From assembly GCA_034620365.1 (NCBI GenBank), contig JAQGEQ010000234.1, positions 30,201 to 94,200 on the forward strand: a DNA stretch of 64,000 nt, in the 5' to 3' direction. Numbering within the stretch: position 1 is the stretch's first letter; each line of letters starts with the position of its first letter. A program made the translations under genes and the position numbers. The stretch comes from Pegea sp. RAD2-039. Taxonomy: Eukaryota > Chordata > Thaliacea > Salpida > Salpidae. The notes beneath the pieces are model-generated. The model worked only from the letters and a program-made list of their open reading frames with translations, searched no databases and was not told the origin of the DNA. Of the stretch, positions 4,430 to 61,018 are shown in pieces.

Positions 4430-5130
4430 AATGAAATGAAAATGAACTTTATTAAATCACATGCAATATGTAAAATTGTGATTTAAATAATATGATACAC
4501 GCCACGAGTAGTAAAAATAAGTTTGCATAATCAGCGTTAAAGTATTTTTATCTTTATTTAACTTGTTGTAATTTATAAAATACTATAAAAAAATTAAATA
4601 ACTATTGTGTAATTAAACTAACCTATAAGATCTAGACAAAACAATTAAGACTTGAAATATTCGACTATAGCTGCTTGATGGAAAAATTGATTGAAGTACA
4701 AAGATTTCGTAATTTTATTTTAATTCCAACAAAATAATTAACATCAAATACAAGAGGCGAAATTTAAACTTAGATTATAAAACATAAACTTTTCTGGTAG
4801 TAAGAACAATTAGCAAACGCACAAACTTATCTCGCAGACATCAAACATTTCTTTATCAGAAGTAAAATTTTGTTTTATGATTTTTAAAGCTATTTATTTA
4901 AGTTTACGTCCGACCAACAATATCTAATTTCATTGGTTCTTGTTCATATATTTTTGACGTTTAGCCTTTAAATTTTGAAGAGTTAAAAGAAAATACTTTA
5001 AAATGAACTTTTAAGTTTAAATCAAAAAAGACATTCAAGAAAAATATGAAAGTTTTCTTATGTAAGGTTTGGTGCTTTACTGAAACTTTTTAAAATTATT
5101 ATTTTTGACTTCTTTTTCGCATTATTGTTT
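4430..5130 (-). repeat. 3' flank of the family gene, inverted copy of 16650-17350
   Basis: Read on the minus strand, this runs in the same order as the downstream flank of the intact family gene at 15305-16648. Both contain a gacgtt or aacgtc run, the word gtcggacgt or gtcggatgt, a cgtttgctaatt run and a gaggcgaaatttaaacttag run in matching order. It shows that the duplicated unit includes several hundred bases downstream of the coding region. Confidence 0.65.
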
Positions 5131-5132
5131 AA

Positions 5133-6376
5133 TTAATTAGTAGGCATCATCATTTTTAAAGAAGATAACAGTTTTTTGATTATTTCGGTGGCGGTATTCA
5201 AAATAGATATCATTCTTTGACAGTTTGGAACATCTTCAAAAATTAGTTTTATATCGAGTAATACGCCCAATTGGCTCTCATAGTTACTAGGAAACATTTT
5301 ATCTTCGTTGTTTTCATTATTCTTTTTGTTACTCATAGAAACTTTAAAATTCTCTGAAACGTCAGATGAAATATTGTTTGGCTGATCAGAAAAATTTGAA
5401 CTTGTATAACCTTCTTCCGACAGGTAGAGATCAGTTTCGAAGCAGTCACAATTGTCAGATATTAAATTGCAAGACTGATTAGAAAAATCGGAACTTGTAT
5501 AATCTTCTAGGTACAGATCAGTTTGAAGGAAGATAGATTCTTTTCTTATCTTTGATAACTTTACATGACAAGCTAATGACAAGCTAAACAAAACAGGTAC
5601 AAGTAAATTGTTAAAATAAGTTTCAGCAAATTCTGGATTTCGTTTAAATTCTAGTAAAGTGCTTATCAGGCTGTTTGAGGCAGATTGTTACATGATTGCA
5701 CAAGTGCGTAACAAAAATCATCTAAAAATAATAAATATTCTTGAAACTTGAGAAAATTTGTATTTGTTGATTGTATAACTTTTTTAGTTGTACCAGATAG
5801 CAAGGAAAATCTTTTGATCAAATCATTAAGTTTTGTGGTTTGTTTGTAGATATTAGTTTCGGTTATATTGCCAAATCCATCCAAAATCTGCACTAGAAAA
5901 AATAGAAGTGTATACGTTTTGTATTTCATTACGGTTTTAGTTGGTTTGAATTCTTCAGCAATCAACAGACAATGTCTTAATAATTCTAAAGCAACAAAAT
6001 GGCTTTCTACAGATTTGTCCTTTATGAAAGAAAACTTTGTTCCAATTTGAAAGAATATTCTCAGTATAATAAGATCACGTGAGTTACTGCTGACATTAAA
6101 ATCTTTCAATTTGTAAACTTTTACTAATCCAGATTTTTCGTATTTCCAGTAAACAAATCCTGCTGATAAAATATTATCTTTCTCAAGTACATCAGAAAAA
6201 CAATCAAATCCATCAACAGAAGTATCTTTATCTTGGTACTTAGAGCGAAGCTCTATAAGCTCATTTCCTACCGGGCTTGTAAAAATGTAATCAAATAGAC
6301 TACCTTGCAATATGAAAGAGTTTTTCCTCCAATATCCAAAACTTTCACACATTCAGAATATTCATTCATTTCAAAT
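5133..6376 (-). pseudogene. Family gene, frameshifted and internally deleted
   Basis: A minus-strand relative of the 447-aa gene at 15305-16648. The start is clear (reading MNEYSECVKVLDIGGKT), but one base is missing in the AAAACTC run right after, compared with the intact copy, which shifts the frame. The frame then stays open from about 6350 to 5666 (FILQGSLFDYIF, GFDCFSD, FFQIGTKF). Near 5690 some 40-50 codons of the intact protein are missing and the frame shifts again, into a last stretch ending at 5133. That tail matches the family C-terminus (ILNTATEII versus ILKTATTIF) but contains an internally repeated, acidic serine-rich segment absent from the intact copy. The protein is unidentified. 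Three lesions make function unlikely. Confidence 0.75.
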
Positions 6377-10019: not shown

Positions 10020-11135
10020 TCTAAAACACTTTTACAAATTATATTTATAGTAAGTAATTCGTCGTACAGGCTGTCATATCTACTAACAAACATTTCAGCT
10101 TTCTTGTTTTCTTTATTTTTTATATTACTCAAAAAATATTTCATTTTCTCTGAAAATTCAGATTCAATTTTGCTTAATTATTTAGCTAAAGAATTGAAAT
10201 TTGTATAAACTTCTTGACACAGGTACGTATTAGTTTGGAGGCGTATAGATTGCTTTCTTATTTTTGAAAACTCCAAATGGTAAGCTAACGATATCAACAA
10301 TTTAAAACTAAACAAAACAGCTGCAAGTGAATTGCTTAAAAAATCATTAGCAAATCTTGGACTTTGTTTGGCTCTTTGTAAATTTATTTGAAGGCTATAT
10401 GAAGCAAACGTTTGCCCAAAAACATATAAGTGTCCTGCTATTGAAGATTTAATGAAGAACATCACATCGCATAAGCACACAAATGCATTTATTCTCAATA
10501 TGTCTCAGTTATGCTCGAAACCAATAGAATTGTAATCAAATAGATCTTCAGTTGACTCAAGTGAGGAATGAAAGACATTCAAAAATGATAGAGATTCTTG
10601 AAACTTGTGATTATTGGTGTTTGTTGATAGTTTCACTTCTTTAGTTCTACCAGATAGCAAAGACAATCTGGTGATCAAATCATTAAGTATTTTGGTTTGT
10701 TTGGAGAGTTTAGTTTCGTACATATTGCTGAATACATCCAAGATCTGTACTATAAAAAATAAAAAGGCAGATGTTTCTTATTTCATTATGGTTCTAGATG
10801 GTTTGAATTTTTCAGCAATCAACAGACAACGTTTTAATAATTCCAAAGCAAAAAAATGGGCTTCTACAGATTTGTCCTTTTTGAAAGAAAACTTTGTTCC
10901 AATTTGAAAGAATATTCTCAGTATAGTAAAATCATATGAGATACTGCTGACATTAAAATCTTTTAATTTGTAAAGTTTAACTAATCCACTTTCTTTGTAT
11001 ATCCAGTAAACGAATACTGCTTACAGAATATTATCTTTCACAAGTGAATCAGAAAAACAATCAAATCCATCAACAGAAATTTGTTCATCTTGGTACTTAG
11101 AGTGAAGTTCTATAAGTTCATTTCCTGTCTGAGTG
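10020..11135 (-). pseudogene. Family gene, 5'-truncated with stops
   Basis: Minus-strand relative of the gene at 15305-16648. Homology starts abruptly near 11135 at the residues GNELIELHSKY (codon 40 of the intact protein), so promoter and start are gone. In-frame stops interrupt it, for example just before the residues AVFVYW, after TIMK, and between two longer open pieces near 10503. Recognisable segments are GFDCFSD, FFQIGTKFSF, LSLLSGR, INAFVCLCDVMFF and SSIAGHLYVFGQTFASYS. Its upstream side abuts a PRDM9-like fragment at exactly the junction seen in the inverted copy near 60310. Confidence 0.75.
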
Positions 11136-11223
11136 TAAGTTTTATTTACTACATTAAAATAAAAATACTAATATTTCAAATAAGCAATTTTCAATAAAAT
11201 AAATTCTTTTTTTTACAATTTAG

Positions 11224-11540
11224 TTTGTGATAAATGTAATGAGCTACATTTAAGTGATTGTCCTGTACATGGCAAAATGAGTCAAGTTCCAGATACCAAA
11301 TTCAAAATGGCTAGTTTCAAATATTTGTTTTGAAATAATTCCAAATTGGATTGATTTATTCAATTTGGAAAATTAAAATTTATTTCTTTTTGAAATTGAG
11401 AATTTGATGGGACGAGCAATACTTACCTGCCCAAAAGAGGTCAAAGTTGATAAATCCTCTATAAGAGGTGGTGTTGAAGGAGTTTGGAAAGATGTTGCTA
11501 TACCAAAAGGTAGTGTGTCTTGACCATATGAGGGTGAAAA
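11224..11540 (+). pseudogene. PRDM9-like fragment: zinc knuckle and start of PR domain
   Basis: Two plus-strand exon remnants. From 11224, after an AATTTAG acceptor, the frame reads CDKCNELHLSDCPVHGKM, the C-x2-C...C-x2-HG zinc knuckle that precedes the PR/SET domain in PRDM7/9-type histone methyltransferases. This is the only copy here that keeps both cysteines of the first pair. From 11401 the second exon reads LTCPKEVKVDKSSIRGGVEGVW, split here as LTCPKEV, then VDKSSI and VEGVW, then IPKG and PYEGE, the conserved entry of the PR domain. The FG before PYEGE is destroyed by a TGA (GTGTCTTGACCA). The rest of the SET domain is missing; sequence passes straight into the end of the opposing SMC6 pseudogene. 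Confidence 0.7.
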
Positions 11541-11569
11541 TAAAAAATAGCTTAAAAAATAGCAGCAAA

Positions 11570-13125
11570 TCATCTTGCTTTCTTGTGGCGTTCAGGATCA
11601 GGCATCTTACAAACCAGTACTTTATGATCTCCTGATAGATTTGAGATTTCATTTGGAGTGAGAAAAATAAGTTGAACATTTGGTTGTGTCTTTGCAAAAC
11701 CTAGCAAAACCTCTATAGCCATACGATGGTTATCAATATCCATAAAGACATCAAATTCATCTAAACAACGAAGAGGAGTATGCATAATCTTCCATAAAGA
11801 TATCATAAAATAAACTGTACTAAAAGAACGCTCACCACCAGAAAGGACCTTCATTTCCTTTCCACTTTCTTCCCCTCTTTGACTGACTTCAAGTTGAAGT
11901 AATTTTTTGTATGATCAAAGTTTGCGCTTCCTTTCAGATTAAAAGCCTCAACGGATTTCATGAAGTTGAGAGTAAATTGTGAAGCTAATATATGTACTAA
12001 TTCCATTTGTCGACTGAGATTAAATGATAAAATTTCTTCAAATTTTTTCAGTTGGTTTGTGCAAATTTGAATCTGACTTCTATCAGTATGGTAGAGTTCT
12101 TTAGCAGTTTTTACTTCTTCCAAACTCTAGTCGTAATCTCCAACAGTTTTTTCTCTTCTTTTAATGGTTTCTTGAATCACTTAAATTGTTTTTATGATGT
12201 CTTCAGTGGGTTATTCAATATCAGGTCGCTCTTTAGATACTTGCCGAGCTTTAACAGAACAACATTCAACTTCTTGACTTACCAACTCAAACTTTTTTTC
12301 AACTCTGCAACTAAGGTCTTATGCTCATCATACTTACCTAAACAATAGTTTTGTTCAGATTTCAACATCTTTAATTGATCTGATAAAATTTTAAGTTCCT
12401 CAGAAAGGTTATCAACTATTTCATGTCGAGCTCTTACAGTTTCTTCCATTGATTCACAATTTCTTTTTCTTTTAGTTAGCTTTAGTTTAGTTGCTTGTCG
12501 CTGTGAATTAACTCTGATTAATTCGTCCTTTTCTTTTTTCAATTTATGCTCATAAAGCAATTTTTTTTCTTCTAATTCTTCCCAGTTCATTTCAATTGGC
12601 TTTTCCATCCACTCTAGTTTTCTAATCTCTAATCGAACTTTCTTCATATTTTTTAAAAGATCAACTTTAAGCATCTTTATTAGGTTCAAGGACTTCTTTT
12701 TCATGTTAGATTGACTCTGCAATTCAGTTATGCTACCTTTAACTTTTTTAAGACTGTTTTGATGAGTAATAATGTTTTTTCGATGTTATGTAATAGCTTC
12801 CTCAAAGTCTTCACCTAAAAAACTTGTTTTTGATGAATATTTGTTTGAATAAAACTTTCTTACATACACTTCATCACCTTCTGATGTTATAGCCTTCGTA
12901 CACTTATCCCTTTTCTGAACTTGAATGCAATCAATAGCTTCATTCAAATCAGGAATTATGAGAACGTTTTCAATATGAGCCCAATCAATCAAACAATTCA
13001 TCACGTTTACATCACTTACTTTCAGCAAATCGTAAACAGTCGAGTACTTTGGGTGAGTTGTTCTAAAGCGGTTGACATCATGTAGCTTTTCTCCAAACTT
13101 CACAATGTAAATTGACACCGTTTAT
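11570..13125 (-). pseudogene. SMC6: SMC6 pseudogene (hinge, coiled coil, ABC end)
   Basis: SMC6 is an ATPase of the SMC5/6 genome-stability complex. This minus-strand copy has, in order, the distal hinge (13118-12786: NCLIDWAHIENVLIIP and an ITSEGDEVYVRKFYS segment matching the hinge exit), a long coiled coil (12785-12280), a coiled segment with VSKERPDIE and a GDYD motif, the ABC signature [11 protein letters not shown] (about 11840) and the Walker B/D-loop region LRCLDEFDVFMD, ending MPDPERHKKAR at 11570. The N-terminal head and first coiled coil are absent. There is an in-frame stop after the hinge, frameshifts in A-runs near 12290 and 11905, and more stops around 12140-12210. No introns are visible over about 1.5 kb, which fits a retrocopy or a single large exon. 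Confidence 0.85.
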
Positions 13126-14990: not shown

Positions 14991-15304
14991 TGTGTTGAAG
15001 ACTCTTATTATATTGAAAGTTCTATTTTTTACTTTATCGTTTGTTTGCCATTTTTGTACTGAACATGTTTTAGTTATTTGATGTAACTTTATAATTTCTA
15101 TTTATTATTTAAGTTAACAAAGATATTACTACTTCTTAACTGAACCTAAATCTTAATGCCTGGTGTAAGTTGTAAAGTAGAACATTCTCAGAACATTTTG
15201 TGATTAGTAAATGTACTATGTGATGATACTTTTTATCTAATAAATAATTTAACTACAGACTTATTTTTAGCAGTTCCTGATTTTGTAGATTAACCAGCAA
15301 GAAA

Positions 15305-16648
15305 ATGAACAATTTTGAAATGAATAAATATTCTGAATGTGTGAAAGTTCTAGACGTTGGAGGAAAAACATCTTTCATATTGCAAGGTAGTCTATTTGAT
15401 TACATTTTTACAAGCCCGGCAGGAAATGAGCTTATAGAACTTCACTCTAAGTACCAAGATAAAGATATTTCTGTTGATGGATTTGATTGTTTTTCTGATT
15501 TACTTGTGAAAGAAAATATTTTGTCCGCAGGATTCGTTTACTGGACATACAAAGAAAGTGGATTAGTGAAACTTTACAAATTAAAAGATTTTAAAGTCAG
15601 CAGTAACTCATGTGTTTTTAATATACTGAGAATATTCTTTCAAATTGGAACAAAGTTTTCTTTCAAACAGGACAAATCTGTAGAAAGCCATTTTGTTGCT
15701 TTAGAATTATTGAAACATTGTCTGTTGGTTGCTGAAAAATTCAAACCAACTAAAACCGTAATGAAATACAAATTATCTGCGTTCTCATTTTTTATAGTGC
15801 AGATCTTGGATTTATTCAGCAATACGTACGGAACTAAACTCTGCAAACAAACCAAAAAACTTAATGATTTGAAAAACAGATTGTCTTTGCTATCTGGTAG
15901 ATCTAACAATGTGAAGCTATCAACAAATATAAATAATCAGAGGGTTAAAGAATTTTTGTCGTTTTTGGATGTCTTTTCTTTCTCACTGACGCAATCATGT
16001 ACCACTCTGTTTTGTGAAGAACTTACTATATTAAATTATAACCGATATTTAATGAGAGTTCTTGCATTTGTAAGCTCCTGCGATGTGATGTTTTTCATTC
16101 AATATTCAATAGCAGGACAGTACCATGTTTTTGGGCAAACAATTGCTTCAAATAGCGTACGAAAATGTTTAAAAGGAATTAAGGAAAATTTCTTTAAAAC
16201 TTTTTTTATTGATTCAATTGTAGTTGTTTTGTTCAGTTTTAATTGGTTGATATCATTAGCTTGCCTTATGAAGTTTTCAAAGATAAGAAAATATTCTAAC
16301 CGCCTCCAAGCTGGTTGGTACTTGTGTCAAGAGTTTTATAGAACTTTTAATTATATTACTCTGCTAAAAATTATTCAAAGAGATGTTTCAGAGAAAAGGG
16401 AATTTTTTATGAGTAAAATAAAAAATAAAGAAAAAAGGAAAGCTAAAAAAATGTTTGCTAAAAATCAAGAAAACGACAAGGGTGAAAAGTTTATTTGTAG
16501 ATTTAAGAGCCTATTGGCCGAATTATTTTATATAAATAAAAATTGTAAAGACCGTATAGACTGTAGAAAGATGAAATCTATTTTAAAAACAGCCACAACA
16601 ATATTCATAAAGTTGTTTTCCTCTTTTCAAAATAGTTATGCAAGTTAA
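15305..16648 (+). CDS. Lineage-specific family protein, 447 aa, intact
   Basis: One uninterrupted exon from ATG at 15305 to TAA at 16646. A second methionine lies at codon 6; the right-edge copy keeps both, while the minus-strand copy at 6376 starts with MNEYSEC, so either may be used. I do not recognise the family. Visible features are an N-terminal VLDVGGKTSFILQGSLFDYIF segment, GFDCFSDLL, a hydrophobic stretch at about 156-172, another at 250-270, a strong one at about 300-322 (VVVLFSFNWLISLACLM), then a lysine-rich region near 390-435 and a C-terminal ILKTATTIFIKLFSS. The hydrophobic stretches could be membrane segments or buried helices; no signal peptide is evident at the start. It is the reference for four damaged or partial relatives here, and shares its promoter block with them. 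Confidence 0.8.
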   Translation: MNNFEMNKYSECVKVLDVGGKTSFILQGSLFDYIFTSPAGNELIELHSKYQDKDISVDGFDCFSDLLVKENILSAGFVYWTYKESGLVKLYKLKDFKVSSNSCVFNILRIFFQIGTKFSFKQDKSVESHFVALELLKHCLLVAEKFKPTKTVMKYKLSAFSFFIVQILDLFSNTYGTKLCKQTKKLNDLKNRLSLLSGRSNNVKLSTNINNQRVKEFLSFLDVFSFSLTQSCTTLFCEELTILNYNRYLMRVLAFVSSCDVMFFIQYSIAGQYHVFGQTIASNSVRKCLKGIKENFFKTFFIDSIVVVLFSFNWLISLACLMKFSKIRKYSNRLQAGWYLCQEFYRTFNYITLLKIIQRDVSEKREFFMSKIKNKEKRKAKKMFAKNQENDKGEKFICRFKSLLAELFYINKNCKDRIDCRKMKSILKTATTIFIKLFSSFQNSYAS

Positions 16649-17832: not shown

Positions 17833-17899
17833 AGTAAGTAGATACAAACAGCAATAGTTTGGTAAAATTGTGAAAGATCCTAGCTATTAAATATCTACG

Positions 17900-18065
17900 A
17901 TTCTATTTTCTAAACAAGCGTCAACCATTCTATCAAAGTAGGTGTTTAATTGTGTGCTGCTAGGAACAAATTTGGTTTGTAAAGACAAATTTTTCTAAAG
18001 TTGATGCTACTCAGCTTAAAGAAAACTCTAAAAATAATTTTGTTTGGTTCTAAATTAAACATTTT
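17900..18065. repeat. Direct repeat L1, partner at 28010-28165
   Basis: Shares in the same orientation the words taccattct or aaccattct, gtaggtgtttaattg, gtgctgctagga, gttggtttgtaaagacaa and gatgctactcagcttaaaga followed by aaactctaaaaata with the block 28010-28165. About 85-90 percent identity by eye. Together with the second block it brackets the tRNA and micro-exon gene. Confidence 0.75.
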
Positions 18066-19462: not shown

Positions 19463-19710
19463 CTACAGCTTCTGAAAATGAACAAAAAATAAATGAACAA
19501 AAGTTTTATTTTCAATTAAAATTAAATGATAAAAGCAAATAGATTATAGAATGTTTTATAAATTGCTAAATTGTATCACAAAAGTAAGGTTTCCAAATAA
19601 ATAAGAAATAAAATAAGTAAATCAAATAAAAGATAAACTTTCAGTTTACATTTTCTTACGCATCCACAAGTAAAAACTCGAATCAAAAGGTTTCTAAATC
19701 TCTTCTTCTT
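19463..19710 (-). CDS. Micro-exon gene, last two exons
   Basis: Exon 19710-19660 is 51 bp, phase 0, reading KKKRFRNLLIRVFTCGC before a gtaag donor; it is basic with two cysteines, unlike the cassettes. The final exon starts after a TTTTTGTTCATTTTCAG acceptor at 19471 and reads K-L-stop, with TAG at 19463-19465. No further in-frame exon is required. Confidence 0.6.
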
Positions 19711-22700
19711 CTGCAAATTGTTTTTTAAATTTAATATTTTACTTAATTCATTTTATAGAACTAAAGATTCATATTTTAATAAAATAAAATTCAGAGAAAT
19801 TAAAATTTTGTTAAACAGAAATTAATTGCTTCAATATTCTTTAATTTATATTTAGCATCAGGTATTCGTCTTCACTTACAGATAATTTTTTGATGGCATC
19901 TTTTTTCCCAGTTTCAACCTTGTTTTTCTGCATTGAACAACTTAATTTTACAATTTAATTTAAGAAAAATCATTTTCACTATAAACACCAACTTATTAAT
20001 AATAATTATAAACAATCATATATGTAACTGATAAACGAAATCAAACTTACCGGTCTGCTTTCAACATTTATATTCTTAGGTTCCTCATCTGGGATATTTT
20101 GATCCTGAATAAAAAAATTAAGGTTCAAATGAAGTTGACTGGAAAAATAATATCAATTCTATATTCAAGTTGTAGTTTAAAAAATTTGTCTAAAGTAGTG
20201 ACAATAATTTTATTAGTGTAATGTTTTCACAGAAATATTGAACAGAATTATTATTTAAATCAGAAAATAACTTTTCAAATAAAACCATTATAATATCAAC
20301 ATTAAATCACAACTAACTGGTTTGCTTTCAACATTTTGAATATTGCTATTATCACCTATGCTTTGTATCTGAAAAAAATAAAGAACTAGTTAATCAACTT
20401 TACTCTTAATATAGTACAACCAACTAAATTTTCATTAATAATTTTTTTATATTAAACCTGTTTAAAAAAACAGGAAGAAATATTTTTAAATAGAACAACA
20501 AATAGAAACAATCATTTTCACTAACTGTATCAGGTTCTGAAATTATCGAAGTGACTTTGCTTTTTATTTCATCGTTTTCAATCTAAAATCAAAACAAATA
20601 TTCGAAGTAAGTTTTAAGAGGGCAAAATTATATTTAAAACAAAATAAATTAGGTTTAAGATCAAATTATTATTTACCAAAACTGGATTCACCAAATTATT
20701 GTTGGTTTCTCCGCAATCGGTTTTCTACAAAATACAAGTTTATCTTTTATTATTTAAAAATAGCAAAAATTAAAAAATTGTTTATTTTTCTCATGAAAAC
20801 AACTATTATTTAATTAAATTTATATAACTTGAACCAAAGTTGTGACTAACAAAAACTATACATCAGAATTAATAAACAAAATGACTGATGATAAATTAAT
20901 CACAGAAACTAACCAATGAGGAGATTGAACTCTTGTCACTGTCACATTTCTTGATAGCATTTGATTTCTAAAGAAAATATTTGTTAAAAACTGTAAGAAA
21001 ACTGTTCAAATTTATTTTACTACTATTATGAAAATCGTTACTGGTTTTAAAAAGTTGTTTTCTAGTTTAATTTTCGTTTTAATGTTATACGATTTAATTT
21101 TGATTTTATAATGTGGTTAATTTGATTTTATTTAAATTAATTTATGACTAAAAGAATGATTTAAACTCCATTAAAACTAAAATCAGAGAAATTAATCGTT
21201 TATAGAGAGGTAGAAATTAATTACTGTAAATTTTGTACGTTATATTTAACATAATGTAATAGTGTTAATTTACAGATAACTTTTTCGAGTTATCTTTTTA
21301 TAAGTTCCAAATACGTTTTCTTGCATTAAACAACTTAAATTTACAATTTATCTTGAGAAGCATCAAATTTTGATACAAACAATAACTTGTCCACAATAAT
21401 TATAAAGAGTCATTTATGTAACTGACAAAGAAAAGCTGAATAACCAAACTTACCGGTTTGCTTTCAACATTTATATTCTTAGGTTTTTCATCTGGGATAT
21501 TTTGATCCTGAAAAAAATGATTAACATTTAAATGAAATTGAGAGAAAAAATAAGATTGATTTTATTTTGAAGTCGTAATTTATAAAAGTTGTCTAATGTA
21601 GTGACAATAATTTTATTAGTTTGATTTTTTTACAAGAATTTTACAGAGAGTTAATATTTAAATCAGAAAAAACTTGTAAAGTAAAAATATTATAATATCA
21701 AAACTAAATCACAACTAACTGGTTTGCTTTCAACATTTTGAATATTGTTATTATCATCTATACCATGTTTCTGAAAAAATAAAATAATAGTTAATCAGTT
21801 ATAATTTTAATATAGTAAAAACAGCAAATAAAACTGCAACAGAGATACAAACAAATAATTATTACGTTATGTTTTCTTTTATGTCAAAACTTTAAAGGAA
21901 AATGAAAATTAGTTTGATTAATTTAACAACAAACTGAAGCTAAATCAAAAAGTTTAAAATCAATAAATTATTTTGAAACAATTAATTGAATGAAATATTA
22001 AATATTCTATTATATGATAATGACAATCTAGTAAGTTCTTGAAAAAAAAATAAAATGGTTTTACTCTTTGTCTGAAAGCTATTAAACCAGTTTCTATAAG
22101 ATTATCTTCTATATTATAAATAAATTTAATGAAAAATTAAATCAGTAACTTGTATTTATATCCTTAATAGCTAACTCTAAATTAATTTTATTATTAAAAT
22201 TTACAATAATCTTGGATTTGGTCAAAAGAACAGAAAGAAATAATCAATTTTCACTAACTGTATCCGGTTCTGAAATTATCGAAGTGACTTTGCTTCTCAT
22301 TTTATCGTTTTCAATCTAAAATCATAAATAAATATTTTCAGTAAGTTTTAATAAGGCAAATTTATATTTAAGATAAAAGAAATTAGGTTTAGAATCAAAT
22401 CAGTACTTACCAAAACTGGATTCACCAAATTATTGCTGGTTTCTTCGCAATCGGCTTTCTAAAAAAGACAAGTTTATCTTTTATTATTTGAAAGTAACAA
22501 AAACAACTTATTTGATGTTTTCATGGAAACAACTATTATCTAATTAAATCTATTTAACCTGAAATATAGTTATAACTAAAAAACCCTTTTTAAGAATTAA
22601 TAAGTAAAATGACTGATAATAAATTAATCACAGAAACTAACCAATGAGAAGATTGACCAGATGTCACTTTGACTTTTTTTGCTAGCATTTGATTCCTACA

Positions 22701-25700
22701 GAAAATATTTGTTAAAAACTATATGAAAATTATTCAAATTTATTTTACTAATTTTCTGTAATAAGTTAGTGGTTTCAATAAAGTATTTTTATGTTTTATC
22801 ATTTTTCAAGTTATAAGATTTAATTTTTTTTTTGTAAAGTAGTTAATTTGATTTTATTTAACTTAATTCATGACTAAAAAAATGATTTTAAATTCATTAA
22901 AACAAAATTCAGACGTAATAAATTTTATTGAGAGTTAGAAATTAATTGCTTTACATTTTTATGTTCTATTTAACATCAGGTATTAGTGTTAACTTACACA
23001 TATTTTTTTAGAGTTATTTTTCTTATAAATTAGCAAAAAGAAAAAAATATTTGATCAATTCATGAAAACAACAATTATTTAATCTAATTTATATAACTTG
23101 AACCAAAGTTGTGACTAACAAAAACTATACATCAGAATTTATAAACAAAATGACTGATGATAAATTAATCACAGAAACTAACCAATGAGGAGATTGAACT
23201 CCTGTCACTTTGACTTTCCTTTTTAGCTTTTTGTTCCTAAAGAAAGAATTCGTTAAAAACTATATGAAAATTGTTCAAATTTACTTTACTACTTTTCAGT
23301 AATAAGTTAATGGTTTGAATAAGGTATTTTCAAGTTTATCATTTTTCAAGTTATAAGATTTAATTTTGTCTATGTAAAATAGTTAATTTTACTTTATTTA
23401 ACGTAATTATTGACTATAAAAAAAGATTTTAAATTCATTAAAATGAAATTCAGAGATTTTAAAAGTTTATGGAGAGATAGAAATTAATTGTTTTAAATTT
23501 TTTACGTTATATTCAAAATCACGTATAAGTTTTTACTTACAGCTCTTATTCTCAACAAATTTCTCTTGAAAATCTCGAAAGCCATTTCCTGCATTGAACA
23601 ACTTAAATTTATAATTGAGAAGACTCATTTTTATATAAACATTAACTTGTTATCAATAATTTCTCAAAAGTTACACATTTATATCTGATAAACAAAATCC
23701 AAATAACCTAACTTACCGGTTTGCTTTCAACATTTATATTCTTAGGTTCTTCATATGGGATATTTTGATACTGAAAAAAATGATTGAAATTTAAATAAAG
23801 TTGAGAGCAAAAATAATATTAATTTCATTTTGAAGAAGTAATTTTTAAACGATTTCTAAAGTAGTTGTAACAAATTATTTACTTTAATTTTTTGCAGTAA
23901 TATTACAGAGAATTTATATTTAAATAAAAAAAAACTTGTGAAGGAAAACCATTGTAATATTAATATTAAATCAAAACTAACTGGTTTGCTTTCAACATTT
24001 TGAATATTGCTATTATCACCTATGCTTTGTTCCTGAAAACAATGAAAGAAAAATTAGTCTGTTTGTATTTTAATATAGTAAAAACAGCAAATGAAATAGC
24101 AACATAGGTACAAGCTATTAAATTTTTATTTTCTTTTATATCAAAAATGTTAATAAAAATGAAAATTAGTTTGATTAAATTAAAAATGAATTGAAGTTAA
24201 ATCATAAATTTTTTATTTCTAAACTATTAATGAATGAAATATTAAATAATCTGTAGTATGATAATGACAATCTAGTAAGTTCTTGAAAAGAAACTAAAAT
24301 GGTTTACTCTTTGTCTGAAAGCAATCAAATCAGTTTCTATAAGATTATCTTCTATATTATCAATAAACTTAATGAAAAATTAAATCAGTAACTTGTATTT
24401 AGATCTGTAATAATTATTTCAATAACATTTTTAACATAAAAATCTACAATATTTTAGTTTTTAGATCAAAGAAACAAATAGAAATGGTAATTTTTCACTA
24501 ACTGTATTAGGTTCTGAAATTATCGAAGTGACTTTGCTTTTCATTTCATTGTTTTCAATCTAAAATCATAAATAAATATTTTCAGTATGTTGTAACATTG
24601 AAAATTTACATTAAAAACAAATTAAATTAGGTTTACGATCAAATTAATACTTACCAAAACTGGATTCACCAAATTATTGTTGGTTTCTGAGCAATCGGTT
24701 TCCTAAAAATTACAACTTTATGTTTTATCTTTTAAAAGTAGCAAAAAAGTTTTGATATCATTGTATAAAAAACCAAGTATTTAATTCAGTTATCATAACT
24801 TGAAAAAAAGTTCTTAGAAACAAAAAGTACATATAAGATTTAATAAACAAAATGGGTGATGATAAATTAATCACAGAAACTAACCCATGAGGAGATTGAA
24901 GAGCTGTCACTGTCACATTCCTTGAGTAACTCTAATAACTAAAGAAAATATGTATTGAAAACCATTTTTAAACTACTCAAATATATTTTACTACTTTTTT
25001 GGAATAAGTTAGTGGTTTATTAAAAGTATTTTCAAGTTTTATCATTTATCAAAATAATAAATTACAATTTTGTTTTGTAAAATAATTAATTTGATTACAA
25101 TCTTGTTGACTTTAAACTACATCCTTCAGTTTCAAATTTTTTTAGTAGCTTAAACATAACTTTAAAACTAATAGTTTAAACAATTTAAACTAATGCTAAA
25201 ATCGGAAAACCACCTTAAATAAAAGACTGACATTGAACCTTAATTTAAAGTAAGCAGAACTTTAAATATGTTTCTTGTTAACACATCATAGCTAGAAAGA
25301 AAACTGATTTTTTGTATATTTTTGATGAAAGTTATTTGAGTTTATTTGAGTTTTAAATTTTGTGTCTTTGTATAATTGTTATAAATGTTTGGTTTTTAAA
25401 AAACTGAAATTACTATTTTTATATAAAATAAAAGCGATTGATACTCAAATTATACAAATGCAAGTGAAGCAGCAAAAGAAGTTAAATTTGTTTCACAAAC
25501 AATATTATACTGAATTTAACAAACGGATGAAGAGTTTTTAATTAGAATCAAAGACACCCTGAAATTAGAAGAAAAAGAAACTCACGCTGGAAGGTTTCAA
25601 ATCATCACCACCACCTTCCAAATCAGTCAACTGAAAAATATTTCCCAGTTTACATATTTTACTTCTACTTAAATTATTTTGTTTTAAAAGTATTAAAAGT

Positions 25701-27905
25701 TCAACAAATATTTGATTTTAAGCTGATTTAATTTCATTATGACCATTATTATTTTATTAAAGATGAATAATTAATCTTTTATATAGTTAAAAAAATAAAC
25801 AAATAGTTTTATAATGTACATATTTTATCTCAACGGTTAAAATTTGCCATTTCGTTTTCTTCTTCAATAACTTCAACAATTGATGAGGTTTCCTATAAGA
25901 AATAGAGTTAAACAAAAACTTAAATAACTTATTCAGTCAACTGTTATCATTTATTAATTTCCATTAAGTATGAATAAGGATGAATCAAATACTTTCTGAT
26001 AAAATACTAAAATTATATTTACCAATCAGTCTTAAAACTACTACAAAAGACAAGCAAGTGCTATCAATAAAGAAAATGTTTATTTAACTCACTGTATTGA
26101 AGTCTATAGCATTTTCAACAATATCCCCAACAACATCTTTGTTAACAGCTGAAAATATTTTTAATTTTGTATTAATACTTAAAATTCTACAATTTAATTG
26201 AAAACATAAACAAAACTATGACCAAAAAGTAACAAGTTTCAGAAAAATCAGATTAAATTTATTATTTTTAGAACAAACATTTTGTCTGTTACACTTACTT
26301 AGGTGCTTCATGTATTCCAACTAAAAATAAAATCATAAGTTATTTTTACTTTTTAACAGAATCTTTAAATTAAAAAAGAAATTATTGAAAGGATTATTGA
26401 ATCAAATATAATCAAATAAACTTGAAAAAGTAAATATTTGATACATTATTAGGTGTTTTTAACATAATAATTGAAATAAATCAATTTACCAACAAACATT
26501 TCCACTGTTGCAGGTTAAAAACATTTTGTTGAATTGTACCTAAAATTTTTATATGTTAATATTTGAGGTTACAATCAATTAATTAATTCTCTAACCTTTA
26601 AATTTCGTTTGTTCAAAATTACCTTTAAATAAAAATGTAGTTTTAAAAACTGTTGATCAGTTGCGTTAAGACATCTAATTTAAAATATAACTATTTAAAA
26701 CAAAAGTAAACTTACCAAACAATGATATTTCAAACAATACTAATTTGGCTGAAATATAAAAAAATTAGTTAATTTAAACAAAGCAAGCTTGTTATACACT
26801 ATACAATAGTTATTTAAAAGTGGTATTAATAAAGTTAACAATTTTATTTACTTACCAGTTGAAAAAAGATTTCGTTTAAATGTAGGTGATTCACTTCATA
26901 TAAGTGAACTTCCATAGTATGATCTGAAATCATAAGAATAACATTTACTCATGAACTACAAAGTGTTAATGTTACTTGTATAACTTTATTACAAGGTTTA
27001 AAAAGAATATGTTAGATTGAAAAATACTTACTAAGTAAGTCTATTTGCTTATCCATCTCGAAAAATAAATAATTCTATCTGATGAAAAGATATTTTTAAA
27101 TAGCACGACAAAAAATTAATGTTAACAACTACTTTTTAATTATAAACTTTTAAAATTAACTTAGTTAGCGATGAAAGCTATTAATTATATCCTAGGATTT
27201 TCGCATATTTTAAAATAATAGCAAACTAAAACTGCTTAATAACATTTGAAAGTATTCAAAGAAACAACTTGAGATTACTAACAACTTTGTTTGCGATCTC
27301 AAAATATCTAAACCAAACATTTAAAATTAAATAGAATAATTGCATAATTTCTACTTTAAAATTGATATAAAGTATAAATCGATACTAAGTTATTCAGTAA
27401 CTTTCTAAATTAATAATTTAATCAAGAATATTTCATAATTGTCAAATATAATTAAAAACTTTGAAAGATTTACTTATTTATTTTAATTTAATTAAGTTTT
27501 AAAAGAGCGATGTACAAACCTCAATAAAGTAGATAATTAAAAGAAAAACTTTTTTACAAGTGAGTTATGAAATATTGGTTATTACGTCATAGATGCTAAT
27601 ATCGTTGTCAAAATAATTCAAGTTAGCTCGTTATTAATATTAAAAGAATTAGTTATCTTGATTAATTGAATATTTCTTTTATCTTTCATTATTATCAAAT
27701 CATTTTAAACCACTCATTAACCAAAACTCAAAAACACTTTTGGAAAAGTATTTGATTTAATAGCCTAACGTGATCAGCTACAATTTTTCCATAATAATAA
27801 TTAGCAAAGACAAAACTAATAATGAACTTACAAACAGTTAGCTGAAGAACTTACCTCTAATCTTAAGATCGCTGGTTCTTAAACTTTTCATAATCAGTCT
27901 CTAGG
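19463..27905 (-). CDS. Micro-exon gene with repeated six-exon cassettes
   Basis: A minus-strand gene assembled from exon-sized islands, each between a PyAG acceptor and a GTAAG/GTTAG/GTGAG donor. A probable non-coding first exon ends at 27855 (gtaag donor). The ATG is at 27054-27056 in exon 27078-27032. Then come 26923-26856, 26739-26716 or 26748-26716, 26504-26490 or 26539-26490, 26320-26299 and 26148-26093, an ambiguous exon near 25892-25878, and 25630-25586. Cassettes of 48-57 bp exons follow (listed separately), then 19710-19660 and a 9-bp end with TAG at 19463-19465. From 25630 on, every exon is a multiple of three in phase 0, so exons can be lost or skipped without a frameshift; splits at 27032/26923 and 26299/26148 also agree. 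The product is hydrophilic, rich in N, S, E, K and D, with no evident signal peptide or known domain. The architecture recalls schistosome micro-exon genes and aphid bicycle genes, by analogy only. Confidence 0.75.
19880..20967 (-). CDS. Micro-exon cassette D (six exons)
   Basis: Type 6 at 20967-20914 (KSNAIKKCDSDKSSISSL), type 5 at 20724-20677 (KTDCGETNNNLVNPVL), type 4 at 20582-20526 (IENDEIKSKVTSIISEPDT), type 3 at 20368-20318 (IQSIGDNSNIQNVESKP), type 2 at 20104-20051 (DQNIPDEEPKNINVESRP), type 1 at 19927-19880 (KNKVETGKKDAIKKLS). All six have both splice signals. Type 3, 4 and 6 exons use a gttag donor, in this cassette as in the others, while types 1 and 2 use gtaag. Confidence 0.8.
21274..22695 (-). 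CDS. Micro-exon cassette C (type 1 exon decayed)
   Basis: Type 6 at 22695-22642 (ESNASKKSQSDIWSIFSL), type 5 at 22458-22411 (KADCEETSNNLVNPVL), type 4 at 22315-22259 (DKMRSKVTSIISEPDT), type 3 at 21770-21720 (KHGIDDNNNIQNVESKP), type 2 at 21507-21454 (DQNIPDEKPKNINVESKP). The type 1 copy at 21321-21274 is recognisable (KDNSKKLS against KDAIKKLS in cassette D), but its acceptor CAG has become CAA and it carries an in-frame TAA. It is presumably skipped, which the phase-0 design permits. Confidence 0.75.
22994..23236 (-). CDS. Micro-exon cassette B (collapsed)
   Basis: Only a type 6 exon remains intact (23236-23183, 54 bp, EQKAKKESQSDRSSISSL). Moving 3', sequence normally found between type 6 and type 5 exons runs to about 23030 and then switches, without a gap, into the donor-side part of a type 1 exon (donor near 22995, remnant about 22996-23027) that has no acceptor. 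Types 5, 4, 3 and 2 are missing. This is the footprint of unequal recombination between cassettes; the remaining type 6 exon still splices in phase with its neighbours. Confidence 0.7.
23541..24938 (-). CDS. Micro-exon cassette A (six exons)
   Basis: Six exons in order: type 6 at 24938-24885 (54 bp, LLELLKECDSDSSSISSW), type 5 at 24702-24655 (48 bp, CSETNNNLVNPVL), type 4 at 24559-24503 (57 bp, MKSKVTSIISEPNT), type 3 at 24032-23982 (51 bp, EQSIGDNSNIQNVESKP), type 2 at 23770-23717 (54 bp, YQNIPYEEPKNINVESKP), type 1 at 23588-23541 (48 bp, EMAFEIFKRNLLRIRA). Total 312 bp or 104 codons, all phase 0. Types 2 and 3 both end in NVESKP, so they are probably themselves duplicates of one older exon. 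Confidence 0.8.
25586..27078 (-). CDS. Micro-exon gene, unique 5' exons
   Basis: The start MDKQIDLL is followed by a split codon into the 68-bp exon (TMEVHLYEVNHLHLNEIF). The 22-bp exon (LEYMKHL plus one base) joins a 56-bp exon (two bases plus NKDVVGDIVENAIDFNT) exactly in phase. Two routes exist between them. With acceptors at 26739 and 26504, the chain stays open from the ATG (YCLKYHCL, then WKCLL). With the stronger acceptors at 26748 and 26539, the 33- and 50-bp exons agree with each other in phase but not with the ATG frame, which meets a stop. A 45-bp exon with LEGGGDDLKPSS leads into the cassettes. The island ETSSI at 25892-25878 has only a weak donor. Confidence 0.6.
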
Positions 27906-28009
27906 CTTTCTTGAAATACTTTTAATATAGATAAATTAGCATAAACCGGCAAGATTTTGATAAAATTGTGATAGTTTATAACTATAAGAAATCTAAGACT
28001 ACGTTTTAT

Positions 28010-28165
28010 AAATATGCGTCTACCATTCTAACAGAGTAGGTGTTTAATTGCGTGCTGCTAGGAGCAGAGTTGGTTTGTAAAGACAAGTTTTTCTATAGTT
28101 GATGCTACTCAGCTTAAAGAAAACTCTAAAAATAAATTTGTTTGTTTCTAAATTAAAGAGATCTA
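28010..28165. repeat. Direct repeat R1, partner at 17900-18065
   Basis: Same orientation and words as the left partner (gtaggtgtttaattg, gtgctgctagga, gatgctactcagcttaaaga). It lies just upstream (5') of the micro-exon gene, while the partner lies downstream. Confidence 0.75.
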
Positions 28166-59110: not shown

Positions 59111-59189
59111 ACAGTACTCAAATATTTTTACGTCTTTTTACTGTTTCAGGTATTATAGACCTATTAAAGAAAGATAGTAATGCAACTAT

Positions 59190-59869
59190 CACTGCTGGCA
59201 AGTATCTAAAGAGCGACCTGATATTGAAGAACTCACTGAAGATATCATAAAAACAATTTCAGCGATTCAAGAAAACATTAAAAGAAGAGAAAAAATTGTT
59301 GGAGATTACGACAAGAGTTTGGAAGGAGTAAAAACTGCTAAAGAACTCTACCATACTGCTAGAAGTCAGATTCAAATTTGCACAAACCAACTGCAAAAAA
59401 TTGAAGAAATTTTGTCATTTAATCTCAGTCGACAAATGGAACTAGTACATATATTAGCTTCACAATTTACTTTCAACTTCATGAAATCCGTTGAGGCTTT
59501 TAATCTGAAAGGAAGTGCAAACTTTGATCATACAAAAAATTACTTCAACTTGAAGTCAGTCAAAGAGGGGGAGGAAGTGGGAAGGAAATAAAGTTCCTTT
59601 CTGGTGGTGAGCGTTCTTTTAGTACAGTTTGTTCTATGATGTCTTTATGGAAGATTATGCCTACTCCTCTTCGTTGTTTGGTTATTTGTTATCTTTATGA
59701 ATATTGATAACCATCGTATGGCTATAGAAGTTTTGCTAGGTTTTGCAAAGACACAACCAAATGTTCAATTTATTTTTCTCACTCCAAATGAAATCTCTAA
59801 TCTATCAGGAGATCATAAAGTACAGGTTTGGAAGATTCCTTATCCTGAACGCCACAAGAAAGCAAGATG
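59190..59869 (+). pseudogene. SMC6: SMC6 C-terminal fragment D
   Basis: Same extent as fragments A and B. The coiled part is open (RPDIEELTEDIIKTISAI and onward), but the A-run near 59545 has lost a base, and the Walker B region is ruined: TTGGATGAATTTGATGTC of the other copies reads TTGGTTATTTGTTATC here, giving VICYLYEY and stops. [11 protein letters not shown] is still readable near 59600. Followed by the end PERHKKAR at 59869. Confidence 0.8.
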
Positions 59870-59903
59870 ATTTGCTGCTATTTTTTAAGCTATTTTTTTT
59901 ACT

Positions 59904-60219
59904 TTCACCCTCATATGGTCAAGACATATTACCTTTTGGTATAGCAACATCTTTCCAAACTCCTTCAACACCACCTCTTATAGAGGGTTTATCAACTTTG
60001 ACCTCCCTTGGGGCAGGTAATTTTTGCTCGTCCCATCAAATTCTCAATTTCAAAAAGAAATAAATTTTAATTTTCTTAATTGAATAAATCAATCCAATTT
60101 GGAATTATTTCAAAACAAATATTTGAAAATAGCCATTTTGATTTTGGTATCTGGAACTTGACTCATTTTGCCATGTACAGGACAATCACCCAAATGTAGC
60201 TCATTATATTTATCACAAA
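59904..60219 (-). pseudogene. PRDM9-like fragment C, mirror of 11224-11540
   Basis: Minus-strand PR entry exon (about 60042-59904: GGVEGVW and IPKG followed by a TGA just before PYEGE) and knuckle exon from 60219 (CDKYNELHLGDCPVHG). The TCTTGACCA lesion is identical to that at 11515-11525 and the PR domain is cut at the same point next to SMC6. The two fragments therefore descend from one already broken copy that was later inverted and duplicated. Confidence 0.7.
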
Positions 60220-60299
60220 CTAAATTGTAAAAAAACAAATTTATTTTATTGAAAATTGTTTATTTGAAATATTAGTAATTTTATTTTAATGTAGTAAAT

Positions 60300-61018
60300 A
60301 AAACTTACACTCAGACAGGAAATGAACTTATAGAACTTCACTCTAAGTACCAAGATAAATAAATTTCTGTTGATGGATTTGATTGTTTTTCTGATTTACT
60401 TGTGAAAGATAATATTTTGTCAGCAGGATTCATTTACTGGACATGCAAAGAAAGTGGATTAGTAAAAGTTTACAAATTGAAAGATTTTAATGTCAACAAT
60501 ACCTCATGTGTTTTTACTATACTGAGAATATTCTTTCAAATTGGAACCAAGTTTACTTTGAAAAAGAACAAATCTTTAAAAAGCCATTTTTTGCTTTAGA
60601 ATTATTAAAACGTTGTCTGTTGATTGCTGAAAAATTCAAACCAACTAAAACCATAATGAAATACAAATTATCCGCGTTTTCATTTTTTATAGTACAGATC
60701 TTGGATGTATTCGGCAATATGTACGAAACTAAACTCTGCAAACAAACCAAAAAAATTAATGATTTGATCACCAGATTGTTTTTGCTATCTGGTAGAACTA
60801 AAGAATTGAAACTATCAACAAACACCATTAATTACAAGTTTCGAGAATATTTATCAATTTTGGATGTCTTTCATTCCTCACTTGAGTCAACTGAAGATCT
60901 ATTTGATTACAATTCTATTGGTTTCGAGCATAACCGAGACATATTGAGAATAAATGCATTTGTGTGCTTATGCGGTTTGATGTTCTTCATTAAATCTTCA
61001 ATAGCAGGACACTTATAA
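60300..61018 (+). pseudogene. Family gene fragment, 5'- and 3'-truncated
   Basis: Homology starts at TGNELIELHSKY near 60318, the same breakpoint as in 10020-11135, with a TAA soon after (DK then stop). The frame then runs through GFDCFSDLL and KDNILSAGF, shifts near 60590, continues through LSAFSFFIVQILDVF and SLESTEDLFDY and stops after SSIAGHL at 61018. There the sequence jumps to the equivalent of about 9515 in the left arm, so about 0.9 kb including the 3' third of the gene is deleted. Confidence 0.75.

Follow-up and report, generated by a model that had tools for sequence, protein, structure and literature searches.

Small symmetric exons that were duplicated in blocks and encode a repetitive chain are found in the fibrillar collagen and titin PEVK genes, and the bicycle proteins of aphids are characterized by a C-Y-C motif. 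Micro-exon genes (MEGs) have mostly been treated in the context of parasites, as instruments used in contact with the host. In one account of the schistosome MEGs, the symmetric exons are 6-36 bp long and constitute approximately 80% of the coding region, and the products are almost without exception secreted or membrane-anchored (PMC5825161). The counting rule given in PMC7653826 asks for at least seven exons, of which at least half are micro-exons (shorter than 70 nt and divisible by three), with a run of at least four of them. The internal exons of bicycle genes are described as almost all being in phase 2 (PMC9168663). In our literature search, the titles returned for microexon genes in free-living animals all concerned schistosomes or helminths, and no paper on micro-exon genes in rotifers was returned.

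In this study, a gene whose structure resembles that of a MEG was analyzed in a stretch of 64,000 nucleotides (the window) from the salp Pegea sp. RAD2-039 (assembly GCA_034620365.1, contig JAQGEQ010000234.1). The gene occupies the minus strand from 27891 to about 19463 and consists of 26 coding exons and a 5' leader, E1, perhaps with L2 as the last exon; 21 of the 26 coding exons are short and in phase 0-0. When the counting rule was applied to L009, a further copy of the gene, 21 of the 26 coding exons (E7, E8, the 18 cassette exons and L1) were micro-exons, all of them consecutive, and these accounted for 1083 of 1305 nt, or 83% of the coding length, so that by this rule the gene counts as a MEG. 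Like the schistosome and tapeworm MEGs, the gene has many short exons in succession whose lengths are multiples of three, and the tapeworm MEGs reported in PMC7653826 include a tandem family, which is a likeness to the many-copy family described here. However, the present gene differs from both in its fixed six-exon cassette order, in showing no evident signal peptide and in its longer exons, the symmetric exons being 42-57 nt versus 6-36 bp in schistosomes. The aphid bicycle genes are similar in having many micro-exons of comparable size and of a single phase in a fast-evolving family, but the cassette exons here begin in phase 0 rather than phase 2, and the L009 protein contains no C-Y-C motif. 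Since the exons are longer than those of schistosome MEGs and the phase is not that of bicycle genes, the family was assigned to neither group. The fibrillar collagen and titin PEVK genes are alike in exon architecture, but no credible Pfam match was obtained for the present protein.

The exons preceding the cassettes are E1 (37 nt, 27855-27891), which carries an in-frame ATG and is probably a leader, E2 (68 nt, 26856-26923), E3 (33 nt in the window copy, 26716-26748), E4 (50 nt, 26490-26539), E5 (22 nt, 26299-26320), E6 (56 nt, 26093-26148), E7 (45 nt, 25848-25892) and E8 (45 nt, 25586-25630; 48 nt in L025 and 42 nt in L026, L027 and L034). Upstream of E1 lies a module of 224 bp (27934-28157, same strand) with a TATA-like stretch recognized by eye, which may act as a promoter. 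The cassette exons were located by reading the minus strand from 28300 to 19300 and scanning for AG-island-GT units with an open frame. The preliminary description had reported islands of 48, 51, 54 and 57 nt on the minus strand in the order 6-5-4-3-2-1, and all 18 were recovered with AG and GT signals and an open phase-0 frame; the sizes in this order are 54, 48, 57, 51, 54 and 48 nt. From 5' to 3', the layout is 6-5-4-3-2-1, a single 6, 6-5-4-3-2 and again 6-5-4-3-2-1. Cassette a contains exon 6 at 24885-24938, exon 5 at 24655-24702, exon 4 at 24503-24559, exon 3 at 23982-24032, exon 2 at 23717-23770 and exon 1 at 23541-23588. The lone exon 6b (23183-23236) is followed by cassette b, with exons 6c (22642-22695), 5 (22411-22458), 4 (22259-22315), 3 (21720-21770) and 2 (21454-21507), and by cassette c, with exons 6d (20914-20967), 5 (20677-20724), 4 (20526-20582), 3 (20318-20368), 2 (20051-20104) and 1 (19880-19927). 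L1 (51 nt, 19660-19710) follows, and L2 (19463-19471) is a possible last exon that would carry the stop codon and is weakly constrained. The same earlier reading had taken every intact unit to be open, and this holds for all 18 cassette exons; in the middle cassette, the unit corresponding to exon 1, a probable relic at approximately 21274-21319, carries a stop and a changed acceptor, as judged by eye. Similarly, its claim of agreeing split codons stood for A/CT between E5 and E6 and failed for A/AT, as the window reads G/AT between E1 and E2 and A/AT was observed in L014 only. The codon split between exons 3 and 4 is G/GT.

The cassette duplication took in introns as well as exons. Divergence between cassettes a and c was 0.106 in exons and 0.189 in introns, and between cassettes b and c it was 0.106 and 0.152, respectively; between cassettes a and b, the exons were hardly more conserved than the introns (0.153 versus 0.172).

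Islands no more conserved than the intervening introns had been named beforehand as one observation that would refute the proposed gene. The main set consisted of the window and 16 aligned copies (17 in total), from which six were dropped for missing parts (L015, L016, L019, L022, L023 and L024), and the diversity set, chosen for completeness, comprised 11 near-complete copies (the window, L009-L014, L017, L018, L020 and L021). Diversity among the 11 copies was 0.0295 in exons (1349 sites) versus 0.0504 in introns (6874 sites), and when the exon mask was rotated, none of the 8023 positions gave so low a value. Expected counts were then taken from the intron substitution spectrum, with changes scored as distinct from the majority base and treated as independent. 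No change to a stop was observed versus 17.4 expected (column counts, with the frameshift of the window copy outside them), and the 104 splice-dinucleotide sites carried one change, the GC donor of the window, versus 22.8 expected. Nonsynonymous changes numbered 95 versus 187.4 expected and synonymous changes 42 versus 57.9 expected. Moreover, 70 small gap events fell in 6319 intron columns; among 1330 exon columns four were printed, two of which were gap columns opened by the dropped rows, leaving a 3-nt loss common to L017 and L018 and the 1-nt loss of the window. The rotation, stop and splice tests thus support protein-coding exons, in agreement with the gene of about 27 micro-exons originally proposed.

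The constraint on the protein among close copies was modest. The pN/pS ratio was 0.54 in the cassettes and 0.82 in the N-terminal exons without E3. By exon type, among ten copies with the window excluded, constraint was strong in types 6 and 1 and in L1 and weak in type 5, and in types 2, 3 and 4 and in E7/E8 pN exceeded pS, so that constraint was not visible. For the conserved head of the protein, dN/dS was 0.24 between L009 and L026 and 0.68 between L009 and L025, and L025 and L026 differed by a dN of 0.111 and a dS of 0.371. As the constraint on splice sites and stops was strong and the picture for the protein mixed, the structure of the gene is held far more tightly than most of its protein sequence.

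Ten of the 17 main-set copies contained 26 coding exons with canonical AG/GT signals and an open chain of 434-435 codons from the ATG of E2. Among the others, L016 is cut by a contig end and is open up to that point, L019 has an open chain with five cassette exons absent, L024 has lost the ATG of E2, the 5' parts of L015 and L022 are absent, and L023 begins at a contig end. The copy in the window is among the less intact members of the family. Its E3 measures 33 nt, one less than the 34 nt found in all 13 other copies of the main set in which E3 is kept, and this 1-nt deletion shifts the frame; its E7 donor is GC, whereas all 14 other main-set copies with E7 have GT. This copy may be decaying, or else the missing nucleotide may reflect an error of assembly. 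The divergent copies retain the gene plan, except for the E7 donor in two of the three (GA in L025 and CT in L027).

The donor of E1 is changed to AT in L012, L019 and L024, E1 is missing in L018, and E1 of L025 is 36 nt long and has no in-frame ATG. Because E1 is thus damaged in two of the ten open copies (L012 and L018) and in L019, L024 and L025, translation more likely begins in E2, probably at the predicted start codon at 26915-26913, and E1 as a coding exon is weakly supported. At the other end, the L1 donor GTAAGA is kept in all 19 copies, out of 20 compared, that reach L1. If L1 is read on unspliced, the position of the first stop varies among copies, as does L2, and the 3' end of the gene is uncertain. 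A transmembrane tail produced by read-through of the L1 donor was considered; it is hydrophobic in the main copies and is not kept in L025 and L026, and it was therefore not adopted.

The number of cassette exons was compared in 21 loci by one scanning rule. Twelve of the 21, including the window, contained 18 cassette exons, L025 contained 16, and L019 and L024 contained 13 each; L026, L027 and L034 contained seven, in the order 6-5-4-5-3-2-1. The incomplete loci L016, L022 and L023 showed 12, 15 and 15, respectively. L019 and L024 each have five exons fewer, with frame and splice sites intact, and their junctions are different, lying in or just after exon 3b in L019 and between 5b and the next exon 4 in L024. 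Since the cassette exons are all in phase 0, the exon number varies between gene copies without a frameshift, and this is the strongest evidence for the earlier suggestion that the product can change by whole exons, which was borne out at this level (18, 16, 13 and 7 in complete copies). If similar cassettes underwent unequal exchange, whole exons would be added or removed in frame because the exon ends fall between codons, and copies with different exon numbers could arise in this way. We infer such exchange as the cause of the difference, and loss as its direction in L019 and L024.

The search of the rest of the genome that the preliminary description had called for revealed a many-copy family. 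In the assembly (105.7 Mb, 387 contigs), the gene region of the window matched 38 stretches, and six of these besides the window covered the whole query at 95-96% identity. Nineteen stretches (L009-L027) and L034 were fetched. The family was thus located at a minimum of 26 places, distributed over 11 contigs: 23 E2 places counted by hand plus L015, L022 and L023, which lack E2 or are cut before it. Alleles or contig ends that overlap may be included among these, as L015 and L023 share 99.75% identity. All three copies read from contigs C171 (L026 and L027) and C31 (L034) are of the one-cassette form, and L025 on C26 has an intermediate form. Coordinates compared by hand placed six pairs of copies tail to tail (two on C70 and one each on C90, C159, C165 and C272), with 4.5-5.4 kb separating the 3' ends; unpaired copies were found on C253, C35, C87 and near 120 kb on C272. 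The arms of the pairs are several per cent apart, which argues against fold-back artefacts of assembly. The 224-bp upstream module was found in at least 40 places, many of them on contigs bearing gene copies, and falls into divergent classes, with a diversity of 0.1255 in the main set. Two further places of the module, L032 and L033, were also read, and there it precedes truncated and rearranged members. The zinc-finger, homeodomain-like and SMC-like open reading frames of the window are likewise repeated. The GC content of four arbitrary stretches was 0.24-0.31, which is similar to the 24.95-31.14% of nine monogonont rotifer assemblies (PMC11954553) and unlike the 43% of Xenoturbella (PMC11521371). 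An EF1A stretch of 176 residues scored 288.7 bits with the best PDB chains, which are mammalian, and 238.2 bits with the yeast chain 1f60, as is likely for an animal. No match was obtained for COX1 or for the exact bdelloid spliced leader, and Chitin_bind_4 and Col_cuticle_N also went unmatched, although their controls gave no match either.

The predicted protein of L009 has 435 residues. The N-terminal part accounts for 104 of these, with the conserved head at residues 1-74, and a further 331 follow. The head showed a mean column identity of 90% in five copies. The last 331 residues are mostly coded by the cassettes, with a basic stretch containing Cys at the C-terminal end; their scaled hydropathy is 0.393 (Uversky boundary, 0.42) and 75% of them are disorder-promoting, suggesting that the repeat tail is probably disordered. 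No credible relative of the protein was found in Pfam, NCBIfam or PDB. The cassette peptide gave weak Pfam rows that stayed under the cut-off (best E 0.036), and there were rows for HIV protease with a best E of 0.26; both were attributed to chance, and a scan of viral contigs confirmed no relative. As in the initial reading, no signal peptide was evident. When hydropathy was scanned crudely over the first 35 residues counted from the E2 start, the most hydrophobic segment of ten residues was at 23-32.

As a whole, the locus is best explained, and with good probability judging from sequence comparison, as a protein-coding, spliced gene that belongs to an orphan animal family with many copies and has a product of approximately 435 residues. 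That the islands are non-coding, satellite-like repeats with frames open by chance is hardly credible: the DNA is AT-rich and repeated, but the rotation, stop and splice tests contradict this explanation. The dispersal of the copies over 11 contigs, together with the truncated and rearranged L032 and L033 under the same upstream module, would also fit a mobile element that spreads the gene to new places. However, the copies are clustered, the homology of several reaches the ends of the 9-kb query and so extends beyond the gene, and none of the ten window open reading frames searched in Pfam matched a transposase, which makes such an element very unlikely. It is improbable, although less so, that these genes form an ampliconic family engaged in genetic conflict, perhaps germline or sex-limited, in a region that multiplies other genes as well; the inverted, tail-to-tail pairs, the widely shared upstream module and the repeated neighboring reading frames seen in the window would suit this reading, but unpaired copies exist and the count of places may include alleles or overlapping contig ends.

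A MEG-type system would produce many secreted or surface variants per gene by skipping single cassette exons in the RNA. The symmetry of all cassette exons (phase 0-0) and the outcome of the counting rule are consistent with it, but it is on balance unlikely, since no signal peptide was evident in the crude scan and the splice sites are kept about as if all exons were required. The strict conservation of splice sites also fits an ordinary repeat protein, with a constitutively spliced disordered tail coded by tandem symmetric exons and with neutral variation in length, and the tail hydropathy below the Uversky boundary and the duplication of cassettes in blocks, introns included, point the same way. 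Such a protein overlaps with the preferred explanation and differs from it mainly in the neutrality of the length variation; the high copy number would need a further explanation, and we regard it as a possible but rather doubtful account. Within the orphan-family explanation, the product would likely serve inside the cell as a scaffold or linker, with a repeat part that differs in length between copies. It can be proposed, though with somewhat less than even confidence, that the family is an unreported and independently evolved one outside flatworms and insects, that its product is intracellular, that its copies are partly inverted-pair amplicons, and that recombination between cassettes is the engine of its length variants. 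A MEG-like architecture with no sign of secretion, and with enough near-identical copies for a comparison of individual cassettes, would allow the origin of symmetric micro-exon genes to be tested, and also whether their variability resides at the DNA level, at the level of splicing or at both.

Several further observations concern the units between the exons. The relic of exon 1 in cassette b (21265-21318) had a diversity of 0.0276, as low as that of the exons, which counts against the gene model. In L026 and L034, a seventh type of exon has an open frame and an acceptor that could be used, but by eye it has no in-phase acceptor in the window set; even so, the seventh-type unit at 22065-22123 was little diverse (0.0216).

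A possible seventh exon type of the micro-exon gene was located on the minus strand of the window at 24308-24367 and 22065-22123, and its counterparts were found in two one-cassette copies of the same assembly, at 3952 in L026 (transcript orientation) and at 3938 in L034. The frame of this candidate exon is open in both of these copies; in the window copy and its close aligned relatives it is apparently a relic, although the second window copy (22065-22123) is little diverse despite this appearance. The last intron of L026 also carries a repeat of ~65 bp at about 5127-5546 (transcript orientation).

The 224-bp upstream module, which lies 5' of the gene, has a second window copy at 17836-18059 (minus strand), downstream of which no micro-exon gene was recognised by eye. 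Two family members, L032 (C247:208000-214600) and L033 (C102:55869-62900), were found to be rearranged: both still have exon 1 and portions of the 3' end together with the upstream module, and their middle consists of other repeated DNA, including inverted segments.

Elsewhere in the window, an open frame of 455 codons lies at 15281-16648 (plus strand), with related stretches near 5666-6352 (minus) and 60491-61018 (plus); a Pfam search with the longest of these copies returned zero matches. Repeated SMC-like stretches lie within 10425-13121 (minus) and 59181-61017 (plus). The SMC_N match at 11570-11914 (Pfam, E 4.5e-7) falls short of the family's cut-off, and the long ORFs adjoining these stretches were without credible Pfam match. 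Three tandem units of about 8-10 kb (30544-59900; identity about 93-97%) each contain a C2H2 zinc-finger ORF and a homeodomain-like ORF, the latter matching Homeobox_KN in Pfam (E 2.2e-5).
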